DNA of 51,204 bases from Phycisphaeraceae bacterium. Its GTDB lineage: Bacteria; Planctomycetota; Phycisphaerae; Phycisphaerales; Phycisphaeraceae. Both the position numbers and the translations under genes were made by a program. The stretch is taken from contig JAFIFY010000062.1 of assembly GCA_020831765.1 (NCBI GenBank), positions 1-51,204 on the forward strand, read 5' to 3'. This document shows, piece after piece, positions 3,101-14,231 of this stretch. Position 1 is the first letter of the stretch; every line of letters starts with the position of its first letter. A model generated the notes under the pieces. The model was not told the DNA's origin. It saw nothing but the letters and a program-made list of their open reading frames with translations, and ran no database searches.

Positions 3101-4317
3101 TTGCTGACGTTGATCCACTCCGGCCAGATTTCACGGGGATGATCTTCACGCTGGAGCCACGCGAGCCATGCTTCCTGATTCAGTTCGGGAGAATCGGCCG
3201 ACCGGTAGGCTTCAAAACCATGCTCGCGAGCGAAGGCGCGGACCTGCTCGGGCGTTGTGCGGGTCCAGTCGATGATGATGCGTGACGGCAGGCCCGGTTC
3301 GATCACCCGGACCTGGTCCCGCACATTGTTGATCGCCGCCAGCGGGTTGTACCCTTCGCGGACGACCACCACGCCGCCGACCGCCTCGGCGCCGTTCTGC
3401 GTCAGCGCTCCGCGCCGGCCGGCCGGTCCCAGTTGGACCCGTGCCACATCACGCACCTGGACCGGTATATTTCCCGGACCCGTACCGACCACGGCGCTGT
3501 TGAGATCCTCGATCCGCCGCACGAATCCGACACCCCGCACCACGTATTCGACATCGTTGATCTCCGTCACGCCCGCCCCGACATCCAAATTGCTGTCGGC
3601 GATGGCGGCGTTCACATCGCTGATCGTCAGGCGGTAGGCTCGAAGCGCATCCGGATCGATATCCACCTGGTACTCGCGAACGAACCCGCCGACCGAGGCC
3701 ACTTCCGCAACACCTTCGGCGGCCAGCAGTCCGAAACGCACGATCCAGTCCTGGATCGATCGCAGTTCATCCAGGTCCCAACCCCCGATCGGATGTCCGT
3801 CCGGATCGCGTCCTTCGAGCGTGTACCAGTAGACCTGGCCCAGCGCCGTGGCATCCGGACCCAGCGTCGGCTGGACGCCTTCAGGAAGCACGCCCGCCTG
3901 TAGGCTGCTGAGTTTTTCGAGAATCCGCGCCCGCGACCAGTAAAACTCGATACCCTCATCGAAGATCACGAAGATCGATGAGAAACCGAACATCGAGCGA
4001 CTGCGCACCTCCTTGACCCCGGGAACACCCATCAGCGCGACGGTCAGTGGGAAGGTGACCTGATCCTGGATGTCCTGAGGTGAACGTCCGGGCCATTCGG
4101 TGAAGACGATCTGCTGGTTCTCGCCGAGATTGGGGATGGCATCGACAGGTATGGGCTGGCGCGGCAACCAGTCGATCTTCCAGTCGAAGGGCGCCACCAG
4201 CACCCCGCCAGCGCCGATCAGCAGCACCAGGAGAATTATGATGAGTTTCTGCTCAAGGCAGAAGCTGAGAATGGCATCCAGCGACGAGGTCCGCCGATCG
4301 GGAGGATGCTCGTTCAT
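178..4317 (-). CDS. cusA: CusA-like heavy-metal efflux RND pump, enlarged
   Basis: This is the inner-membrane pump of a tripartite RND exporter of the heavy-metal (HME) class, probably moving Cu(I)/Ag(I) out through the CusB- and CusC-like partners. At 1379 residues it is about 330 longer than usual CusA proteins. The normal N-terminal helix, porter-domain motifs (PIPVDAIPNLGENQQ, WPGRSPQDIQDQVTFPL) and the TM4-type segment with VSLAGIAIAIG are present. Two insertions stand out: about 50 residues near 350-405 in the porter region, and about 200 residues near 580-790 that add several hydrophobic helices between the two RND halves. The start ATG overlaps the cusB stop (ATGA), indicating translational coupling. 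Metal specificity is inferred from neighbours; the Met relay was not mapped. Confidence 0.93.
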   Translation of the reverse strand: MNEHPPDRRTSSLDAILSFCLEQKLIIILLVLLIGAGGVLVAPFDWKIDWLPRQPIPVDAIPNLGENQQIVFTEWPGRSPQDIQDQVTFPLTVALMGVPGVKEVRSRSMFGFSSIFVIFDEGIEFYWSRARILEKLSSLQAGVLPEGVQPTLGPDATALGQVYWYTLEGRDPDGHPIGGWDLDELRSIQDWIVRFGLLAAEGVAEVASVGGFVREYQVDIDPDALRAYRLTISDVNAAIADSNLDVGAGVTEINDVEYVVRGVGFVRRIEDLNSAVVGTGPGNIPVQVRDVARVQLGPAGRRGALTQNGAEAVGGVVVVREGYNPLAAINNVRDQVRVIEPGLPSRIIIDWTRTTPEQVRAFAREHGFEAYRSADSPELNQEAWLAWLQREDHPREIWPEWINVSKLHIVPFYDRTGLIHETLGTLSDALIQQILITIIVVLIMVFHFRVSLIISATLPMAVLLCFLFMKWFRVDSNVVSLAGIAIAIGTIVDMGIIVTENILRHLRAADRAEPRLPIVLRATREVGSAIVTAIATTVISFMAVFTMTGPEGKMFVPLAYTKTFVLIGAAMVTLTVIPALTHLLVAGRVRPGQGRRLLRFGLGVLGIAATVIGVEMGWGVVWIAGLAVVGLVVIQLLWEPMSAAIRRRANDGGGLSSRFVPFLERIDMVVERVRRGGRMAGRGARLVPWLATVLAVLATGWLLTGLWEPLGPERGLGRNLIFVFGLIVGLLGTFYIFQYFYASILRLCLAHKAAFLCIPAFLVVFGLTVWLGAERVFAFVPHAAQRMGIEPETIRQSDPWVWAVHEFPGLGREFMPPLNEGSFLWMPTTTPHASIGQALDILKFQDMAIAGVPEVEQVVGKIGRVESALDPAPVSMIETLINYRSEYKTDAAGRRLSFKFAHERGEFVRNEDGQLIPDRSRHGRPYRQWRDHIRSPRDIWNELSSAADIPGSTGAPPLQPIETRQIMLQTGMRASMGVKVRAPDLPTLDRVMLDMEAHIRQVPGIDAGSVNADRVVGKPYLEIQIDRDAIARHGLRVAEVQRIISTAIGGQALTTTVEGRERYPVRVRLPRELRDDIDAIERVLVPTRAGAQIPLGELAAVEFTRGPQMIYTEDTYLTGFVTFGQQPGLAEVEMVERVGDYLDHLVETGALTVPEGVSWRFAGTYEHQISAARTLRLVLPVSLALIFLILYFQFRSVSTTLIVFSGIAVAWAGGFTMIYFYGQPWFANFDIFGVNMRDLFQLHAINLSVAVWVGFLALFGIATDDGVVIATYLRQSFDRRRPTTIAELREATIAAGLRRVRPCLMTSATTILALLPVLTATGRGAEIMIPMAIPSVGGMSMVLLTMFTVPVLYCLVQEFRLKRGFDQSGEPVPAASGDD

Positions 4318-6356
4318 CGAGACTCCACTTCCACCAGGGTTTCGACGATCTCACCGCAACGAAGCATGGATGCGCCGTGGTAGGGATTGGCGATTTGTTG
4401 AACGTCCTGAAGCCAGAATCCCTCGCGGCCATTCACCATCGGGCACATTGCCCGATAGACGGTCGCGGTTCCGGTCACACCGAACACGCGGACCATCTCC
4501 GTCAGGTGATCGCTGAATGCCTCGAAGCGCTGACGCTGGTTGGCAAGGTCTTCCTCAGTGCCCAGGGCCTCGAGCGCTTCAGCCATCGTTCGCTTGGAAT
4601 CGCGCCATCGCTTCTGCGCCTCTTCCTCGAGCTCATCAACCTCGATGGCATCGAGCACCGCGCGGACATCTTGCGATCGTCGGCGCGCCTGCTCGGGGGA
4701 GTCTCCGGCCAGACTTTCGACCAGGCCGAAGTTGGCCTGAATCAGGCGTCCCAGCGCGGCCTGAAATTCCTCCGGTGCCTCCAGGGGCTTAACATCCGGA
4801 TCGGCGCCCGGTCGCCGGGCCTGTTCATCACCGTGATCGTGGGCCGGCGCATGATCGCCGGCGGGCTGCATCATGCTCGGTCGCCCCTTGAGTTGAAGCT
4901 CGGCATCCAGCCGGAACGCGCCGCGCGTCACCACGAGCTCGCCTTCCTCCAGGCCATCGAGCACCACGTACCAGTCACCGGCCTTCGGCCCAAGCAGAAC
5001 ATCACGGCCTTCGAATGACGGGCGCTCCTGATCCGGCAACTGCACATAGACCACCGCGCGTCGCCCGGTGATCAACGGCGCGCTGGCGGGAATCACCACG
5101 GGCGGTCGGCCGTGCCGCTCGGGATCATCCTCCGGTTCGTAAATTCCATGGGATCCTGGATCATGATCCCCCGGATGCTCCTGATCATCCGTCTTGCCGT
5201 CCGTCCGCATCATGGCCACGGCCGAATCACTCAGCTTCGCCTCGACCGTACCGCGTACGAACATGCCCGGCTTGAGTCGGCCATCGGGGTTGGGCACATC
5301 CGCCCGCACCCGCACAGCGCGCGTGGCTTCGGTCACCGTGGGTTCAATGAATGTGATCTTTCCCTCGAAGGTCATCCCAGGGAAGCTGGGCATCACAAAA
5401 CTCACCTTCTGGCCCAGGGCCAGCCAATGCAGCTCCGATTCAAAGACTTCCATGCGGCTCCAGAGATGTCCAAGGTCCGCAATCCGGTACACGGGCTGTC
5501 CGGTGGCAAGATAGTCGCCCCTGGCGGCCTGGCGTTCGATCACCGTGCCTCCGATCGGTGCGCGAATGGTCACGTAGTCTTCCACTTCACCACGATCGAT
5601 GAGTTGATCAATCTGTTCAGCGGTCATGCCCAGAAAACGCAGTCGGTCACTCGCCGCCTGAACGGTCCGTTGCGCTGACTGGCGATCGCGGTCTGTGTCC
5701 GCGGGTGTGAAAAGCCCGCTTGCCCGGTGGGCCTGGAGCAACTCTTCCTGCGCGGCGATGAGTTCGGGGCTGTAAAGATCGAAAAGCGGGTCGCCTTGGC
5801 CGACCGTGGCGCCGGTGAAGTCGATGTGCAGTCGTTCAATCCTGCCCGGCACCCAGGCGGTGACCGTCTTGAGTCGTGTCTCGTCGTAGGCGATCTGCCC
5901 GAAGAGTCTCACCGGCACCGTGATGTCGCGCCACTCGGCGGGTTGAACCTGGAGCTGGAGCAGCGCCAGGGCACGCTCACCGAGACGAAGGCGCGGCAAC
6001 TGATCGTCTTCATCATCGTCATCGGCGCGCACCGGTATCAGCGACATGCCGCAGTACGGACAAGGGGCGTTGGGATCAGACAGACGAACCTGTGGATGCA
6101 TCGAGCAGGTGTACAACTGCTGGCGGCCATCACCCACGTCGACCGGTTCGCCCGGGGGTGCATCGGAAGATGGGCCGCCCAGATGCATGCCGATGCCGAT
6201 GCCGACAATGATGAAGATGGCCACCGCGACGCCGCGCAGGTAGGGATACGCCGCTTCCCAGAGGCGACGGCCGGTTGCCGGCGAGGTTGGCGCATTCGAT
6301 TCGGCCGACTGGTCGTCGTGACCCGGAGGGCTGGTCTCGGATTGGTCGCGGCTCAT
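4314..6356 (-). CDS. cusB: CusB-like periplasmic adaptor with two metal-binding domains
   Basis: This is the membrane-fusion adaptor of the efflux system, 680 residues. One membrane anchor lies at about 41-59. A heavy-metal-binding domain at 81-109 has Cys84, Met86, His87, Cys99, Cys102 and Met104 (YTCSMHPQV, PCPYCGMSLIPV). HlyD-type barrel and hairpin domains follow at about 130-370. A His/Asp-rich insertion sits near 380-420 (HPGDHDPGSHG). The C-terminal ~130 residues resemble DUF3347, with MCPMVNGREGFWLQ and a late NPYHGASMLRCGE motif, a second likely copper site. The start codon overlaps the cusC stop by ATGA, and its stop overlaps the cusA start. The combination of metal-binding domains points to copper or silver rather than Zn/Co/Cd, an inference. 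Confidence 0.93.
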   Translation of the reverse strand: MSRDQSETSPPGHDDQSAESNAPTSPATGRRLWEAAYPYLRGVAVAIFIIVGIGIGMHLGGPSSDAPPGEPVDVGDGRQQLYTCSMHPQVRLSDPNAPCPYCGMSLIPVRADDDDEDDQLPRLRLGERALALLQLQVQPAEWRDITVPVRLFGQIAYDETRLKTVTAWVPGRIERLHIDFTGATVGQGDPLFDLYSPELIAAQEELLQAHRASGLFTPADTDRDRQSAQRTVQAASDRLRFLGMTAEQIDQLIDRGEVEDYVTIRAPIGGTVIERQAARGDYLATGQPVYRIADLGHLWSRMEVFESELHWLALGQKVSFVMPSFPGMTFEGKITFIEPTVTEATRAVRVRADVPNPDGRLKPGMFVRGTVEAKLSDSAVAMMRTDGKTDDQEHPGDHDPGSHGIYEPEDDPERHGRPPVVIPASAPLITGRRAVVYVQLPDQERPSFEGRDVLLGPKAGDWYVVLDGLEEGELVVTRGAFRLDAELQLKGRPSMMQPAGDHAPAHDHGDEQARRPGADPDVKPLEAPEEFQAALGRLIQANFGLVESLAGDSPEQARRRSQDVRAVLDAIEVDELEEEAQKRWRDSKRTMAEALEALGTEEDLANQRQRFEAFSDHLTEMVRVFGVTGTATVYRAMCPMVNGREGFWLQDVQQIANPYHGASMLRCGEIVETLVEVESR

Positions 6357-7825
6357 TGCGGTTCTCCGGGTTGAAAATCGGGCAGCGGTCCGCCCAGTGC
6401 CTGGGTCAGGTCAGCCACCGCACGGTGCATGTCGGCGATGATCCGGACACGATCGGCCTGGTCATCCAGCAGTCGCTCCCAGTCATCCAGAAGCTGCAGC
6501 AACGTGATATCGCCCGTCCGGTAGGAAGCCATTGCCAGATCGATGATCCGCTCGGCATCGGGAATCATGCGTCTTTCGAGCCGCCGCAGCATCGACTGAT
6601 TGAACTCCAGTCGCGCGATTGCTTCCTCCACTTTAAACCGAAGCTCATCCCGGGCCGCCTGCGCCTGGGCGCCGGCCCGGCCCACGCCGCGCAGGGCTTC
6701 ACGCTCGCGGGCATCATCGCGCCCCACCCAGATCGGGATGCTCATGCCCACCATGCCCATGATCTCATCCTCCTGGCTTGCCATGCCGTTGCCGCCAGCG
6801 CCCACCCGCCCGTATTGAACGCCGAACATCAGTTCCGGCATCCGCTCTCGCCGAGCCAGCGTCAATCGCCGGTGGTAGGTCTCCGCCTCGGCCTGGGCCG
6901 ATCGAACCATCGGGCTCTGATGTCCGGCAAGCTCAGCCAGCGCGCGGGCATCGAGATGGATCGGCGACCAGGTCAATCGCCCGAACTCGGCCGCCGCGCG
7001 ATCTTCAACTTCCCCGGGCGGAAGATCGAGCGAGTTGGCGGTATCCGCCCCCGGGGATCGTGGCATCGCGATCTCCTCGAGCGTGGGCAGTTGTGTCGCC
7101 CGGCGGAGCATCGCCAGGGCGGTGGCCCGACGACTTTGAAGTTCGTCGATACGGTTTTCAAGTTGGCTGATGCGACGGGAAACGCGCAGCAGATCGCCTT
7201 GGGTGGCATCGCCGATGCGCATCCGTGCCCGCACGGTCTCCTCGATTCGCTCCAATAGCCGCCGGTTTCGTTGGAGAATCTCGATCTGGGCCGAAATGCC
7301 GATGTAGGCCCAGTAAGACCGCCGGACATCGCCCTCGATGCGATCGATCAGGGCTTCGAGCTGATGTCGGGCCTGCTGGACCTCCTGGCGGGCCACCTCC
7401 CGTCGCGCATGAAGTGTCCCGGGGAAGGGCAATCGCTGCTCCAGACCGACGGTAAAGTCCATATCCATCTGACCGAACCCGACCCTCGCCATCGGGTTGG
7501 GAGGAGCGCCGGCCTGGGCGATGCGCTCCTGGAGTTGTTCGATGCGCAGGTGCGCGGCCTCGACCTGGGGATTGGCGGTGATGGCGCGGGCGAGCAGGTC
7601 GTCCAGGGTCGGCTTTCGATCGGTCCATGGAGGCTGATCAACGCGGCTTGAGCTTGGGTGCCCGGGCCCGCCGGCATCCTCGCGGGCCTCGACCACCGAT
7701 CCCAGCGAATGCGCGGATCGATCGCCGCTGATCCATTCATCAAACGGCTGGTTTCTCTGGCAGCCCGCCGACAGCAAGAGCCCGCCGGCCAGAATCATCC
7801 CAAGCCGTGAGGTTGATGATCTCAT
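6353..7825 (-). CDS. cusC: CusC/TolC-family outer-membrane efflux lipoprotein
   Basis: This outer-membrane channel of the RND efflux system has 490 residues from the chosen start. The open frame extends 20 codons further upstream, but that would overlap the preceding gene. The ATG at 7825 gives MRSSTSRLG, then a hydrophobic stretch ending LLLSAGC, a lipobox typical of CusC. Two long coiled-coil repeats with OEP-type segments are visible (for example ANPQVEAAHLRIEQLQERI and AQAEAETYHRRLTLARRERMPEL). There is no strong Shine-Dalgarno, fitting translation coupled to the upstream lipoprotein gene 31 bases away. It overlaps cusB by four bases. Confidence 0.9.
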   Translation of the reverse strand: MRSSTSRLGMILAGGLLLSAGCQRNQPFDEWISGDRSAHSLGSVVEAREDAGGPGHPSSSRVDQPPWTDRKPTLDDLLARAITANPQVEAAHLRIEQLQERIAQAGAPPNPMARVGFGQMDMDFTVGLEQRLPFPGTLHARREVARQEVQQARHQLEALIDRIEGDVRRSYWAYIGISAQIEILQRNRRLLERIEETVRARMRIGDATQGDLLRVSRRISQLENRIDELQSRRATALAMLRRATQLPTLEEIAMPRSPGADTANSLDLPPGEVEDRAAAEFGRLTWSPIHLDARALAELAGHQSPMVRSAQAEAETYHRRLTLARRERMPELMFGVQYGRVGAGGNGMASQEDEIMGMVGMSIPIWVGRDDAREREALRGVGRAGAQAQAARDELRFKVEEAIARLEFNQSMLRRLERRMIPDAERIIDLAMASYRTGDITLLQLLDDWERLLDDQADRVRIIADMHRAVADLTQALGGPLPDFQPGEPQ

Positions 7826-7856
7826 GGATAGAGTCCGGCGGAACGACCCGCGCCGT

Positions 7857-8138
7857 TTAGTGATCATGCGCGGCCTTGGCTTCATCGAGCTTGCTCAGAT
7901 AGCGTTCCGGGTTCTCATTCAGGGCGTCAATGCAGCCGTCGCAGCAGAGCTTGACCTGCCGGCCTTCGACTTCGACCGTGATCGGACCACCCATGGAATC
8001 GAGCTTTTCGCCGCTGACGACGCAGGTGTCCAGCGGATAGTCGGCTTCGACCGTCCTCTCAGTGGTCTCGGTGGTCTCGGTACAGCCATTCAGGGTCAGA
8101 AACAGGGTTGTGACGGCGACGGTGATCATGGATCGCAT
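7857..8138 (-). CDS. Small YHS/TRASH-like metal-binding lipoprotein
   Basis: First gene of the efflux operon, 93 residues. A signal peptide ends in a lipobox-like LTLNGC with the candidate lipidated Cys at 19. The mature part resembles YHS/TRASH metal-binding modules: DTCVVSGEKLDSMGGP (Cys39), a short beta region, then KLCCDGCIDAL (Cys65, Cys66, Cys69) and an ERYL tail. Such modules bind copper or related soft metals, so it may chaperone metal to the CusB adaptor. AGGAG lies 7 bases before the ATG. Transcription probably starts near 8165 from the ECF-type promoter described separately. The exact metal and role are inferred. Confidence 0.85.
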   Translation of the reverse strand: MRSMITVAVTTLFLTLNGCTETTETTERTVEADYPLDTCVVSGEKLDSMGGPITVEVEGRQVKLCCDGCIDALNENPERYLSKLDEAKAAHDH

Positions 8139-8171
8139 CGGAAATCTCCTGGGTAAGGGGTTAATGGTAAG

Positions 8172-8199
8172 AACGATGGATCAGGGCGTCGGGGTTCCC
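8172..8199 (-). promoter_or_regulatory. ECF-type promoter for the efflux operon
   Basis: On the minus strand, GGGAACC (8199-8193) is followed, after a 17-base spacer from GGAACC, by CGTTCT starting at 8175. This fits the classical ECF-sigma layout (GGAAC near -35, CGT near -10). It lies just upstream of the lipoprotein-cusCBA operon and matches the promoter facing the sigma gene in both elements and spacing. Confidence 0.7.
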
Positions 8200-8242
8200 G
8201 ATTCCGGCTCTCAACCGATTTTTTCCTCAGCTCCGGCCCACA

Positions 8243-8270
8243 GGGAACCATTCGGGCCCAGTCCGACGTT
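8243..8270 (+). promoter_or_regulatory. ECF-type autoregulatory promoter of the sigma gene
   Basis: GGGAACC at 8243-8249 and CGTTCT from 8267 are separated by 17 bases counted from GGAACC (8250-8266). The same -35 and -10 elements and spacing occur on the opposite strand 50-100 bp away. An ECF sigma factor commonly activates its own promoter, and the gene starts at 8290. A weak sigma-70 -10-like TATAGT at 8274-8279 is also present. Confidence 0.7.
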
Positions 8271-8289
8271 CTGTATAGTGACAACCTTG

Positions 8290-8880
8290 ATGTCCCGTGA
8301 ACCTCCCAGCAAGTCGGCCGAGCGCTTCAGGACCGAGGTCTGGCCGCTTATGGCTGACTTGCTGCGCCTGGCACGGATATTGACGGGCGATGAATACCTC
8401 GCCGAAGACCTGGTTCAGGAAACCATGCTGCGGGCGTATCGTGGCCTGGAAAGTTGGCGCCAGGGCACGAACATGCGGGCATGGCTGTTGACGATCATGC
8501 GCAACCTGAATGTGGATCGCATTCGGAAGCAGGCTCGCCAGATCACTACCGGATCGATCGAGGAAATGGAGATCGAGCCCTCGGCCGGGGTCCCGATGGA
8601 CGACATCGATCCCGGGAGTTGGCCGAATCCTGACGAGTTGCTTGAGCGATTCAGCGATGACCAGATTGAGGCGGCGCTTCGCCAACTGCCGGATTCCATG
8701 CGCTGGGTGCTGTTGCTGGTGGATGTGCAGCGTCTGAGCGTCGTCGAAGCCGCGGCGATCCTCGGTGTGGCCGAGGGCACGGTCAAAAGCCGGGCCAGCC
8801 GCGCACGAGCGGTGCTGCGGAAACGTCTGCTACCCCTTGCACGCGACAATGGGTGGCTTGATGAATCGGTTCAAGACTAG
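8290..8880 (+). CDS. ECF RNA polymerase sigma factor
   Basis: Sigma-70-family ECF factor of 196 residues. The frame is open for 76 more codons upstream, but that part is not sigma-like, and the ATG at 8290 (MSREPPSKSAERF) gives a normal N-terminus. Region 2 shows YLAEDLVQETMLRAYR and MRAWLLTIMRNLNVDRIRK. Region 4 shows LPDSMRWVLLLVDVQ and the helix-turn-helix VVEAAAILGVAEGTVKSR. A linker rich in acidic residues joins them. It diverges from the copper-type operon, and matching GGGAACC-N17-CGTTCT sites lie on both sides of the shared gap. It therefore probably drives both itself and the efflux operon. The next gene, 7 bases downstream, is a membrane protein suited to be its anti-sigma factor. 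Confidence 0.93.
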   Translation: MSREPPSKSAERFRTEVWPLMADLLRLARILTGDEYLAEDLVQETMLRAYRGLESWRQGTNMRAWLLTIMRNLNVDRIRKQARQITTGSIEEMEIEPSAGVPMDDIDPGSWPNPDELLERFSDDQIEAALRQLPDSMRWVLLLVDVQRLSVVEAAAILGVAEGTVKSRASRARAVLRKRLLPLARDNGWLDESVQD

Positions 8881-9711: not shown

Positions 9712-11490
9712 TCAGCCCTTGTTGGTCGGGCCGAAGGTGATCTTGTCGGTGCCCAGTTGGTCCTGGTTGCCGCCAAGTCCGCCGCCGAGGTTCTTGCGTC
9801 CGGCCGGCGCGCCGGCTGGGGCGGCCTTCTCGTCCTGGTCGGCGGTCCACTGTGCCCGCTTGAGCGAGAGGCCGATCTTGCGGTCGTCCAGGTCCACGCG
9901 AAGGATTTTGACTTCCAGTTCCTCGCCGGCCTTGACCACATCCTGCGGGTTCTCGACCTTGTGATCGGCCAGCTCGGAGATGTGCAGTAGGCCTTCGAGG
10001 TCTTCTTCCAGTTCCACGAAGACGCCGAAGTTGGTGATCTTGGTCACCTTGCCGCGCACGATCATGCCGGGCTGATAGTGGGTGGGGATGGCTTCCAGCC
10101 ACGGATCCTCGCTCATCTGCCGCAAGCCGAGGCTGACCCGCTGCTTGTCCTGGTCCACTTCCAGCACCACGCACTTGAGTTGGTCGCCCTTCTTGAGCAT
10201 CTCGTTGGGATGGGTGAGCTTTCGCGTCCAGGAAAGGTCCGAGACGTGCAGCAGCCCGTCGATGCCCGGTTCGATTTCGATGAACGCGCCGTAGTTGGTG
10301 AGGTTGCGCACCTTGCCCTCGACGACGGTGCCGGGCGGGTACTTCTGGGCGACCAGGTCCCAGGGGTTGACCTCGGTCTGCTTGACGCCGAGGCTGATCT
10401 CCTGCTTGTCCTTGTCGACCTCGAGGACGACCACCTCGATCTCCTCGCCGACGCTGAACATCTCGCTGGGGTGGTTGATTCGCTTGGTCCAGCTCATTTC
10501 CGAGATATGCACCAGGCCCTCGACCCCGTCTTCCAGCTTCACGAACGCGCCATAGCTGACGATGTTGGTCACCACGCCCTGCACGCGGGTATTGGCCGGG
10601 TACTTCTTCTCGATATCCTGCCAGGGGCTGTCTTCCTTCTGCTTCATGCCCAGCGCGATCTTCTCGCGATCGCGGTCGATCGATAGCACCTTGACCTCGA
10701 TCTGGTCCTCGACCTTGAGCAATTCGCTGGGATGATGGATGCGGCCCCAGCTCATGTCGGTGATGTGCAGCAGGCCATCGATGCCGCCCAGGTCCACGAA
10801 CGCGCCGAAGTCGGCCAGGTTCTTGACCGTGCCCTTGACGATGCTGCCCTCGCTGAGGGTTTCCAGCAGCTTGCGGCGGGCTTCTGCGCGTTCTTCTTCG
10901 ATGAGCTTGCGGCGGCTGATGACGATGTTGCGGCGGGGCTCATCGATCTTGAGGATCATGGCCCGGACATTCTGGCCGATGAAGATGCCGATGTCGGCCG
11001 GGCGGCGGATATCCACCTGCGAAGCCGGCAGGAACACCGGCACGCCGATATCCACCAGCAGGCCGCCCTTGATCTTGCGCATCACCTTGCCCTCGATGAT
11101 GTCGCCTTCCTTGCTGGTCTCCAGCAGGCGCTCCCAGCCGCGGATGCGGTCGGCCTTGCGCTTGGAGATGACCACCTGGCCGCCGTCGGATTCCAGGCTT
11201 TCGAGGAAGACCTCGACGGTGTCGCCGATCTCGACCTCTTCAGGATGATCGAATTCGTTGCGATCAAGCACGCCCTCGCTCTTGAGTCCGACCTCGACGA
11301 GGAAATCCGGCCCCGCGTGCCCGATGATCTTGCCCTTGAGAATGCCGCCCGGGGTCAGGTCCTGCAGGGAGTCCTGGAGAACACTGTCCATGACGCTGGC
11401 TTCCATGCTTCCACCCAGCGCCTCTTCCACCATGAGTTGCGCTTCACTTTCATCCACATCCAGTGAAGCAATCAGATTGCGATCGACCAT
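9712..11490 (-). CDS. rpsA: 30S ribosomal protein S1
   Basis: S1 binds mRNA on the small ribosomal subunit and helps start translation. At 592 residues it shows six S1 (OB-fold) repeats. Clear ones read GSIVKGTVKNLADFGAFVDLGGIDGLLHITDMSW, VQGVVTNIVSYGAFVKLEDGVEGLVHISEMSW, VEGKVRNLTNYGAFIEIEPGIDG and VRGKVTKITNFGVFVELEEDLEG in order. The first two domains are more divergent, as is typical. The last ~45 residues form a low-complexity Ala/Gly tail ending QLGTDKITFGPTNKG. Its 3' end holds the right copy of a 30-bp repeat also found at 141-170, so the final ten codons may have been replaced by an insertion. No strong Shine-Dalgarno is seen, as is usual for S1. Confidence 0.97.
   Translation of the reverse strand: MVDRNLIASLDVDESEAQLMVEEALGGSMEASVMDSVLQDSLQDLTPGGILKGKIIGHAGPDFLVEVGLKSEGVLDRNEFDHPEEVEIGDTVEVFLESLESDGGQVVISKRKADRIRGWERLLETSKEGDIIEGKVMRKIKGGLLVDIGVPVFLPASQVDIRRPADIGIFIGQNVRAMILKIDEPRRNIVISRRKLIEEERAEARRKLLETLSEGSIVKGTVKNLADFGAFVDLGGIDGLLHITDMSWGRIHHPSELLKVEDQIEVKVLSIDRDREKIALGMKQKEDSPWQDIEKKYPANTRVQGVVTNIVSYGAFVKLEDGVEGLVHISEMSWTKRINHPSEMFSVGEEIEVVVLEVDKDKQEISLGVKQTEVNPWDLVAQKYPPGTVVEGKVRNLTNYGAFIEIEPGIDGLLHVSDLSWTRKLTHPNEMLKKGDQLKCVVLEVDQDKQRVSLGLRQMSEDPWLEAIPTHYQPGMIVRGKVTKITNFGVFVELEEDLEGLLHISELADHKVENPQDVVKAGEELEVKILRVDLDDRKIGLSLKRAQWTADQDEKAAPAGAPAGRKNLGGGLGGNQDQLGTDKITFGPTNKG
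9745..9774 (-). repeat. rpsA: Right copy of the 30-bp rpsA 3'-end repeat
   Basis: This part of rpsA encodes GGNQDQLGTD and matches 141-170 at 29 of 30 bases in the same orientation. The two copies bracket the copper-type efflux operon, sigma and anti-sigma genes. Flanking sequence beyond the 30 bp does not match. Confidence 0.7.
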
Positions 11491-13433: not shown

Positions 13434-14231
13434 TCAGGCCGCGCTGTTGTGCCGACGCCGAAGCAGCAGCAGGCCGCCGATGCCCATCAGCGCCAGGCTG
13501 GCCGGCTCGGGGACAATGGTCAGGACGATGTCGGACTGGGCCGGGTCGGCCTGATCGATGCCTTTGGCGAAACGGACATCGGGGCCGGGGATGCCCAGAT
13601 CGGACTGCGACAGCAGGATCATCGTCAGTGTGTTGTTGGTGTCGGCGTTGATGAAGTCGGCCAGAGCGCCTCCGTTGATCGAGAAGGTGCCGGTGTCGTT
13701 GCCCACCACATCGAAGGTGCCCAGCAGCGTGGTGTTGGCCGGATTCACCGAGGGCCCGCTGGACTCGAAGCCATTTTGCACATCATTGCCAGGGGCGTCC
13801 ATCCAAGTGACATTCTGAGCCCAGAAGTCCAGTGCCTGGTCGGTCATTCCGTAGACGGCGAAGGTGAAGGTCTCGCCGACGCGATTGGTGTTGCTGTAGC
13901 TGACGATGTTGAAGCTGAGGCTGCTGGCCGGCGCGGCGGCGAAGTCCAGGTCGGAGATGTCGAACTGGAGCCACACCTTCTTGCCGCGACGATCGGTACC
14001 GGCGTTCTTGACGTTCATCGGGTCGCCGGCGTTGCCCGCACCACCGGGTTCGGATGAGCCCTTTTCGATGCTGATGGCCTGCTCGGGGTTGATCGTGAGC
14101 AGGGCTGCGCTGGCCTGGTCGATCGCCGGGCCGAGCCCCAGCGACAGGGCCACGACGCAGGCGGCCCCGGTCAAACGGCCATGGATTTGTCCGCGGCGGA
14201 GCGCCCGTGAATCGGTGGTTCGGATCGTCAT
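13434..14231 (-). CDS. PEP-CTERM secreted protein with DNRLRE-like domain
   Basis: Exported protein of 265 residues. Signal peptide at about 20-43 (GAACVVALSLGLGPAIDQASA), then a beta-rich domain with KKVWLQFDISDL and APASSLSFNIVSY, resembling DNRLRE-type domains. The C-terminus is a textbook PEP-CTERM signal: VPEPASLAL, a hydrophobic helix and RRRHNSAA. Proteins of this kind are cut and released by exosortase; no exosortase gene lies in the window. AGAGAGG precedes the ATG by 7 bases. It is divergent from the XylR-like regulator across a 172-bp gap that contains a candidate regulator half-site. The function of the mature domain is unknown. Confidence 0.88.
   Translation of the reverse strand: MTIRTTDSRALRRGQIHGRLTGAACVVALSLGLGPAIDQASAALLTINPEQAISIEKGSSEPGGAGNAGDPMNVKNAGTDRRGKKVWLQFDISDLDFAAAPASSLSFNIVSYSNTNRVGETFTFAVYGMTDQALDFWAQNVTWMDAPGNDVQNGFESSGPSVNPANTTLLGTFDVVGNDTGTFSINGGALADFINADTNNTLTMILLSQSDLGIPGPDVRFAKGIDQADPAQSDIVLTIVPEPASLALMGIGGLLLLRRRHNSAA

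Follow-up and report, generated by a model that had tools for sequence, protein, structure and literature searches.

Matching divergent ECF-type promoters of a putative sigma/anti-sigma operon and a copper-type efflux operon in a Phycisphaeraceae bacterium: a candidate copper-responsive switch

Gene content of the locus and its divergent promoters

The window analysed here, a stretch of 51,204 nucleotides from a Phycisphaeraceae bacterium (contig JAFIFY010000062.1 of assembly GCA_020831765.1), contains an efflux operon and an ECF sigma factor operon that diverge from a common intergenic gap (Table 1). By its predicted products, the minus-strand operon encodes a pump of the copper/silver CusCBA type together with a small TRASH/YHS-like protein, homologues of which are found beside many orthologous sigma genes. 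That the pump is of the copper type had been proposed in the initial sequence-only reading of this DNA, and the assignment is backed by the heavy metal binding domain of the adaptor and by the methionine triad of CusA. Indeed, the alignment score of the window pump is 585 bits with CusA versus 349 bits with the zinc pump ZneA, and its residues M826, M876 and M967, as read from the alignment, stand at the three methionine positions of CusA, which we take to be M573, M623 and M672. The same triad is present in the pumps of all 15 relatives (of 19) whose fragments cover the three positions. Besides, the window pump is longer than the CusA chain of the PDB by ~330 residues, and the stretches around residues 349-407 and 606-808, which are unmatched in the CusA alignment, point to large insertions.

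Table 1. Features of the divergent locus (positions in the window; protein assignments are predictions)
Feature	Position	Strand	Details
CusA-type heavy-metal RND pump, 1379 aa	178..4317	-	TIGR00914, 729 bits (cut-off 701)
CusB-type adaptor, N-terminal heavy metal binding domain, C-terminal DUF3347	4314..6356	-	PF16576, PF19335, PF11827
Outer-membrane efflux protein, CusC-like	6353..7885	-	PF02321, E 1.2e-43
Small secreted lipoprotein-like protein with TRASH/YHS-like cysteine site, first gene of the efflux operon	7857..8138	-	PF24273, PF04945 weak, below cut-off
Efflux-operon promoter, ECF-type	8170..8199	-	-35 GGGAACC 8199-8193, -10 CGTTCT 8175-8170, spacer 17
Sigma/anti-sigma operon promoter, ECF-type	8243..8272	+	-35 GGGAACC 8243-8249, -10 CGTTCT 8267-8272, spacer 17
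ECF sigma factor, 196 aa, sigma-70 regions 2 and 4	8290..8880	+	PF04542, PF08281 over cut-off
Predicted membrane anti-sigma and copper sensor, 236 aa	8888..9598	+	N-terminal helices 9-44, likely transmembrane helix 66-87, outer domain from about 95

The gap between the two operons holds one copy of the 30-base sequence GGGAACC-N17-CGTTCT on each strand. The sequence-only reading had recognized the identical elements and their 17-base spacer exactly as they are found; it placed them at 8199-8172 and 8243-8270, where the inner ends are right and the outer ends fall two bases short of 8170 and 8272. With spacers of 15-19 bases allowed, 0.02 matches are expected by chance in the whole window, and two or more matches occurred in none of 100 shuffles. 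Across the full genome of 4,714,536 bases (4.71 Mb), the pair in the gap provides the only two exact matches. The start codon of the sigma gene was picked by its position relative to the promoter, with the ATG at 8290 located 18 bases past the end of the plus-strand CGTTCT.

The sigma factor consists of regions 2 and 4 only, as in ECF factors; the solved sequences closest to it are those of SigH, and its C-terminus past region 4 contains zero cysteines, at variance with the Cys-rich extension of the CorE type. It is followed, after 7 bases, by the gene of the predicted anti-sigma. A search of the source genome with the CueR model (TIGR02044) gave no match; CueR is the regulator that this model covers, and another copper regulator may exist. 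On the far side of the sigma operon, a converging open frame (9712-11490) resembles ribosomal protein S1 by eye, and a secreted protein encoded at 13434-14231 on the minus strand has VPEPASLALMGIGGLLLLRRR and a few more residues at its end, resembling by eye a PEP-CTERM sorting signal.

Conservation of the promoters and their neighbours among relatives

A homologue of the second gene, i.e. the one behind the sigma gene, was found in 33 of the 151 genomes sampled from the order. We retrieved 35 loci from these genomes (L033-L067) and a further 15 from Phycisphaerae and other Planctomycetota, three of which were treated as new and used (L069, L072 and L075). The system is also carried by the complete genomes CP087563.1 (strain syqfu) and CP066225.1 (strain ZRK32). 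The sigma gene lies upstream of the second-gene homologue in 35 of 35 relative loci, the copy of L060 being cut by the contig end. Some genomes carry the sigma/anti-sigma pair twice, namely G025 (L044 and L057), G026 (L048 and L055) and G109 (L056 and L064). After a first inspection of the relative loci, the motif definition was relaxed to KGAACY-N17-CGTT, a post-hoc loosening that leaves the comparison between spacers unaffected. In this form the motif, which belongs to the GGAAC/CGT promoter type of ECF factors, precedes the sigma factor's own gene in 35 of the 38 assessable loci (it is absent in L040, L041 and L059), and a copy on the opposite strand occurs within 350 bases in 16 of the 38; the divergent site of L039 has a 16-base spacer. 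From CGTT to the sigma start, the distance is 15-26 bases in 30 of 35 loci, with a full range of 7-79.

The spacer is all but fixed. Among 31 non-redundant upstream regions (four near-duplicates were dropped), 41 sites with a spacer of 17 were counted in 28 regions, and among all other lengths between 8 and 27 bases only spacer 16 occurred, once, while dinucleotide-shuffled versions of these regions yielded a mean of 0.04 sites at spacer 17 and a maximum of 1 in 100 shuffles. Over the 35 whole loci (382,831 bases), 69 sites were found at spacer 17 versus 0-12 at other spacers. The -35 element varies at its first position, where either G or T is found, and 14 of 15 loci have the same base in both of their promoters (Fisher p 0.002, with kinship ignored); no alignment column of the sigma factors clearly tracks this variant. 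On this comparative sequence evidence, the conserved gap motif is a promoter pair. The comparison of orthologous gaps had been suggested by the sequence-only reading, with loss of both motifs as the outcome that would count against it; the opposite outcome was obtained, which supports its claim that the sigma factor activates both itself and the Cus-like operon. The comparative evidence is strong for the promoter part; we infer self-activation and copper control.

As the element is inversely repeated between divergent genes, it could instead form an operator bound by a repressor or a two-component regulator. We regard this as very improbable, since the interval between the mirror elements ranges from 22 to 219 bases across the 16 loci whereas the inner spacer stays constant at 17, a behaviour that fits a promoter pair and not a dyad operator. 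Moreover, many loci have a single site upstream of sigma without a mirror partner, and a simple scan of the window gap for a sigma-70-type promoter found none. The likeness of the two motifs might also be fortuitous in GC-rich DNA, in line with the fact that looser versions are no commoner in the source genome than a control: GGAACY-N17-CGTTY has 13 matches there, versus 21 for the reversed pattern. However, the conservation of a fixed spacer in relatives and the shuffle statistics given above refute a fortuitous likeness, to which we attach next to no probability. Because the loose motif is not enriched in the source genome, the strength of the case for the promoter pair comes from its position and from its conservation in relatives.

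The same counts led us to drop a wider regulon in the source genome, where the loose sites are fewer than in the control and mostly inside open frames (10 of the 11 sites outside the gap lie in frames of at least 100 aa). Five copper P-type ATPase loci were inspected in the source genome, and no good site was found at any of them. With no further target standing out, the sigma system looks like a local switch in this genome. Among relatives, KGAACY-N17-CGTTTA has 57 matches in the 33 anti-sigma-bearing genomes and 5 in 20 genomes without the anti-sigma. Part of the 57 lie in the sigma loci themselves, and only local sites were counted as evidence because the reversed-pattern control finds about 47 matches in the same 33 genomes.

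At the local level, the sites keep company with copper genes. A homologue of the window TRASH/YHS, CusC, CusB or CusA protein is encoded in 27 of the 35 loci L033-L067; four of the remaining eight have metal genes according to Pfam (L050, L053, L061 and L064), and a metal gene was not found among the scanned frames of L059, L063, L065 and L066. In L038, a site with a 17-base spacer stands ahead of the gene for a P-type ATPase that carries YHS and HMBD domains; the gene behind such a site encodes a multicopper oxidase in L053, a protein whose Metal_resist match falls just below cut-off in L064, a cytochrome c in L061 and CusB by itself in L067. Sites of this kind also precede genes for TRASH/YHS proteins (L036, L044, L046, L047 and L051) and for small secreted proteins that have no Pfam family (L041 and L043).

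Small secreted proteins of roughly 86-112 aa, similar to each other by eye, are encoded behind KGAACY-N17-CGTT at L041:562-828 (+), L043:442-762 (+), L049:11947-12204 (-), L055:8292-8627 (-) and L061:6896-7165 (+), and possibly represent a new periplasmic copper-response protein. Extra mirror pairs of sites are also seen away from sigma between other divergent genes, at about 5389/5477 in L053, 5394/5446 in L057, 6631/6759 in L061 and 7582/7651 in L064 (oriented coordinates); the genes that flank them include multicopper oxidase, TRASH/YHS and cytochrome genes.

The predicted membrane anti-sigma protein

The protein encoded directly behind the sigma factor is likely, from its sequence features, both an anti-sigma and a copper sensor, with one membrane helix and an almost invariant Cys-Cys pair outside. 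The periplasmic sensor invoked in the initial reading is best understood as the C-terminal domain of this predicted protein; a separate sensor gene, as in CnrYXH, was sought between its gene and the converging frame and none was found. Positive charges ahead of the membrane span suggest that its N-terminus lies inside the cell. The AlphaFold2 model (pLDDT 82.9, pTM 0.61) predicts helices at 9-26, 31-44 and 66-87, the last of which fits a membrane span, followed by a well-predicted outer alpha/beta domain in which all the conserved cysteine, histidine and methionine residues would be located. In the window protein, the outer-domain residues of this kind are C149, C150, H199, M206, M208, C217 and M219. 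Over 32 aligned second-gene proteins, C150 is conserved in 32, C149 in 31, M206 in 28, H104 in 27, C217 in 26 (i.e. missing in 6), M208 in 25, H199 in 24 and M219 in 23.

The protein could not be placed in a known family by the searches performed. A scan of Pfam and NCBIfam gave no family over cut-off, the NrsF family (PF06532) gave no match at E 0.1, a profile search of the PDB retrieved no relative and no sequence match to CnrY, and a plasmid collection contained no match. Comparison of the modelled outer domain with known folds yielded best Z scores of about 6 (Tsi3) and 5.7 (C-terminal part of RseB), with Foldseek E values no better than 0.014; these fold matches are too weak for a structural kinship to Tsi3 or RseB to be named. 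In a search of the phylum covering 392 genomes, at least 20 matched at E 1e-3 and at least 8 (9 places) at E below 1e-15. The anti-sigma has so far been seen clearly only in the order of the window within the Planctomycetota, apart from a more distant member elsewhere in the class; since at most 7 candidates were scored per genome, its absence from other orders carries little weight. No description of the family or the system was found in the literature searched, which is not proof of absence. We give about even chances to the proposal that the protein behind sigma is the first member of a class of one-helix anti-sigma factors not described before, in which the outer Cys-Cys pair and a Met/Cys cluster would bind Cu(I) directly and replace CusRS and CueR as the sensor for CusCBA.

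Copper control: proposed mechanism and precedents

What is observed directly is the pair of promoters with its exact conservation, its location ahead of the sigma and copper genes, and the order of the genes. Building on them, we consider it quite probable that two divergent promoters serve a single ECF sigma factor, which a membrane anti-sigma would release on copper and which would then induce itself and the CusCBA operon. At rest, the one-helix anti-sigma encoded by the next gene would keep the sigma factor at the inner membrane; the outer domain of this anti-sigma may bind copper via C149, C150 and C217, together with nearby methionines and a histidine. A rise in periplasmic copper would make the anti-sigma change shape or lead to its cleavage, and the sigma factor would be freed. 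The freed factor would fire both promoters, boosting itself and its brake on one side, while on the other the TRASH/YHS protein would be induced along with the CusCBA pump.

It is conceivable, though we think unlikely, that the promoters and the sigma/anti-sigma pair work as proposed but the signal is not copper itself, and that the outer cysteines sense thiol/disulfide stress or another soft metal (Ag, Au or Cd), copper efflux being one output. A Cys-Cys pair can react with oxidants, four relatives lack a nearby metal gene in the scanned frames, and the SigF regulon of Caulobacter was tied at first to chromate and cadmium (PMC3511200) and later to copper (PMC8224329). Against this, the neighbours are overwhelmingly of the copper type, the pumps keep the copper methionines, and the conserved methionines of the outer domain suit Cu(I) or Ag(I) better than oxidants. 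Release of the sigma factor by copper is the reading that we retain.

The arrangement had rightly been called less usual in the sequence-only reading, but ECF/anti-sigma pairs had been linked to copper genes before, namely SigF-NrsF in Caulobacter and RpoQ-RsqA in Cupriavidus. In Escherichia coli, the CusCFBA pump is controlled by the two-component system CusRS; the window pump is of the same type and shares the three CusA methionines, but we infer that it is under the control of the linked ECF sigma factor. The target of CnrYXH of Cupriavidus metallidurans is an RND pump. This system likewise combines an ECF sigma factor, a membrane anti-sigma and outside metal sensing for metal resistance. 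As described in PMC4598750, it governs nickel and cobalt resistance, unlike the system proposed here, and CnrY embraces its sigma factor with two helices; the model of the window protein also has two helices ahead of the membrane helix, whereas the sensor CnrX is a separate protein. CorE of Myxococcus xanthus is an ECF sigma factor for copper genes as well, but it senses copper through its own Cys-rich C-terminal tail and, in the available text of PMC3107203, has no linked anti-sigma; the window sigma factor has no such tail.

The nearest working precedent is SigF-NrsF of Caulobacter crescentus, in which highly similar promoters precede sigF (CC3253) and the target operon CC3254-CC3257, and two conserved outer cysteines of NrsF are needed to hold the SigF regulon at its basal level (PMC3511200). 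This regulon is induced by copper and needed for copper tolerance, a sigF mutant being copper-sensitive (PMC8224329). An ECF sigma factor, a membrane anti-sigma with conserved outer cysteines and paired promoters are thus features that both systems would have in common. However, six membrane helices are predicted for NrsF, which also has a dedicated Pfam family to which the window protein has no match, and the SigF promoter is GTAACC-N16-CGAA, with DUF692/DUF2282 genes and no CusCBA pump among the targets in the available text. In Cupriavidus metallidurans, the copper- and gold-induced gig operon forms a divergon with the ECF sigma factor RpoQ and the predicted membrane anti-sigma RsqA (PMC10304878), an organization similar to that of the window. 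In contrast to the window, the target operon is gigPABT and rpoQ-rsqA depends on the housekeeping sigma factor; RpoQ-dependent initiation at gig is not demonstrated in the available text of that paper. Since the window protein has no match to the NrsF family and the sigma factor lacks the CorE extension, neither label was applied here. What would be new is the anti-sigma family, control of copper genes by ECF/anti-sigma pairs being already known.

To conclude, many relatives have the same arrangement, which suggests that a membrane protein not yet described forms the core of a switch dedicated to copper sensing. Planctomycetota have abundant ECF sigma factors, few of them with assigned signals; little on copper control in this phylum was found in the literature searched. 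For one ECF/anti-sigma family, a concrete candidate for the signal can hereby be named, together with a defined promoter and a small group of targets. If the anti-sigma itself binds copper, it would be a further periplasmic copper reader beside CusS-type kinases, CorE and NrsF, and might serve as a part for copper biosensors.
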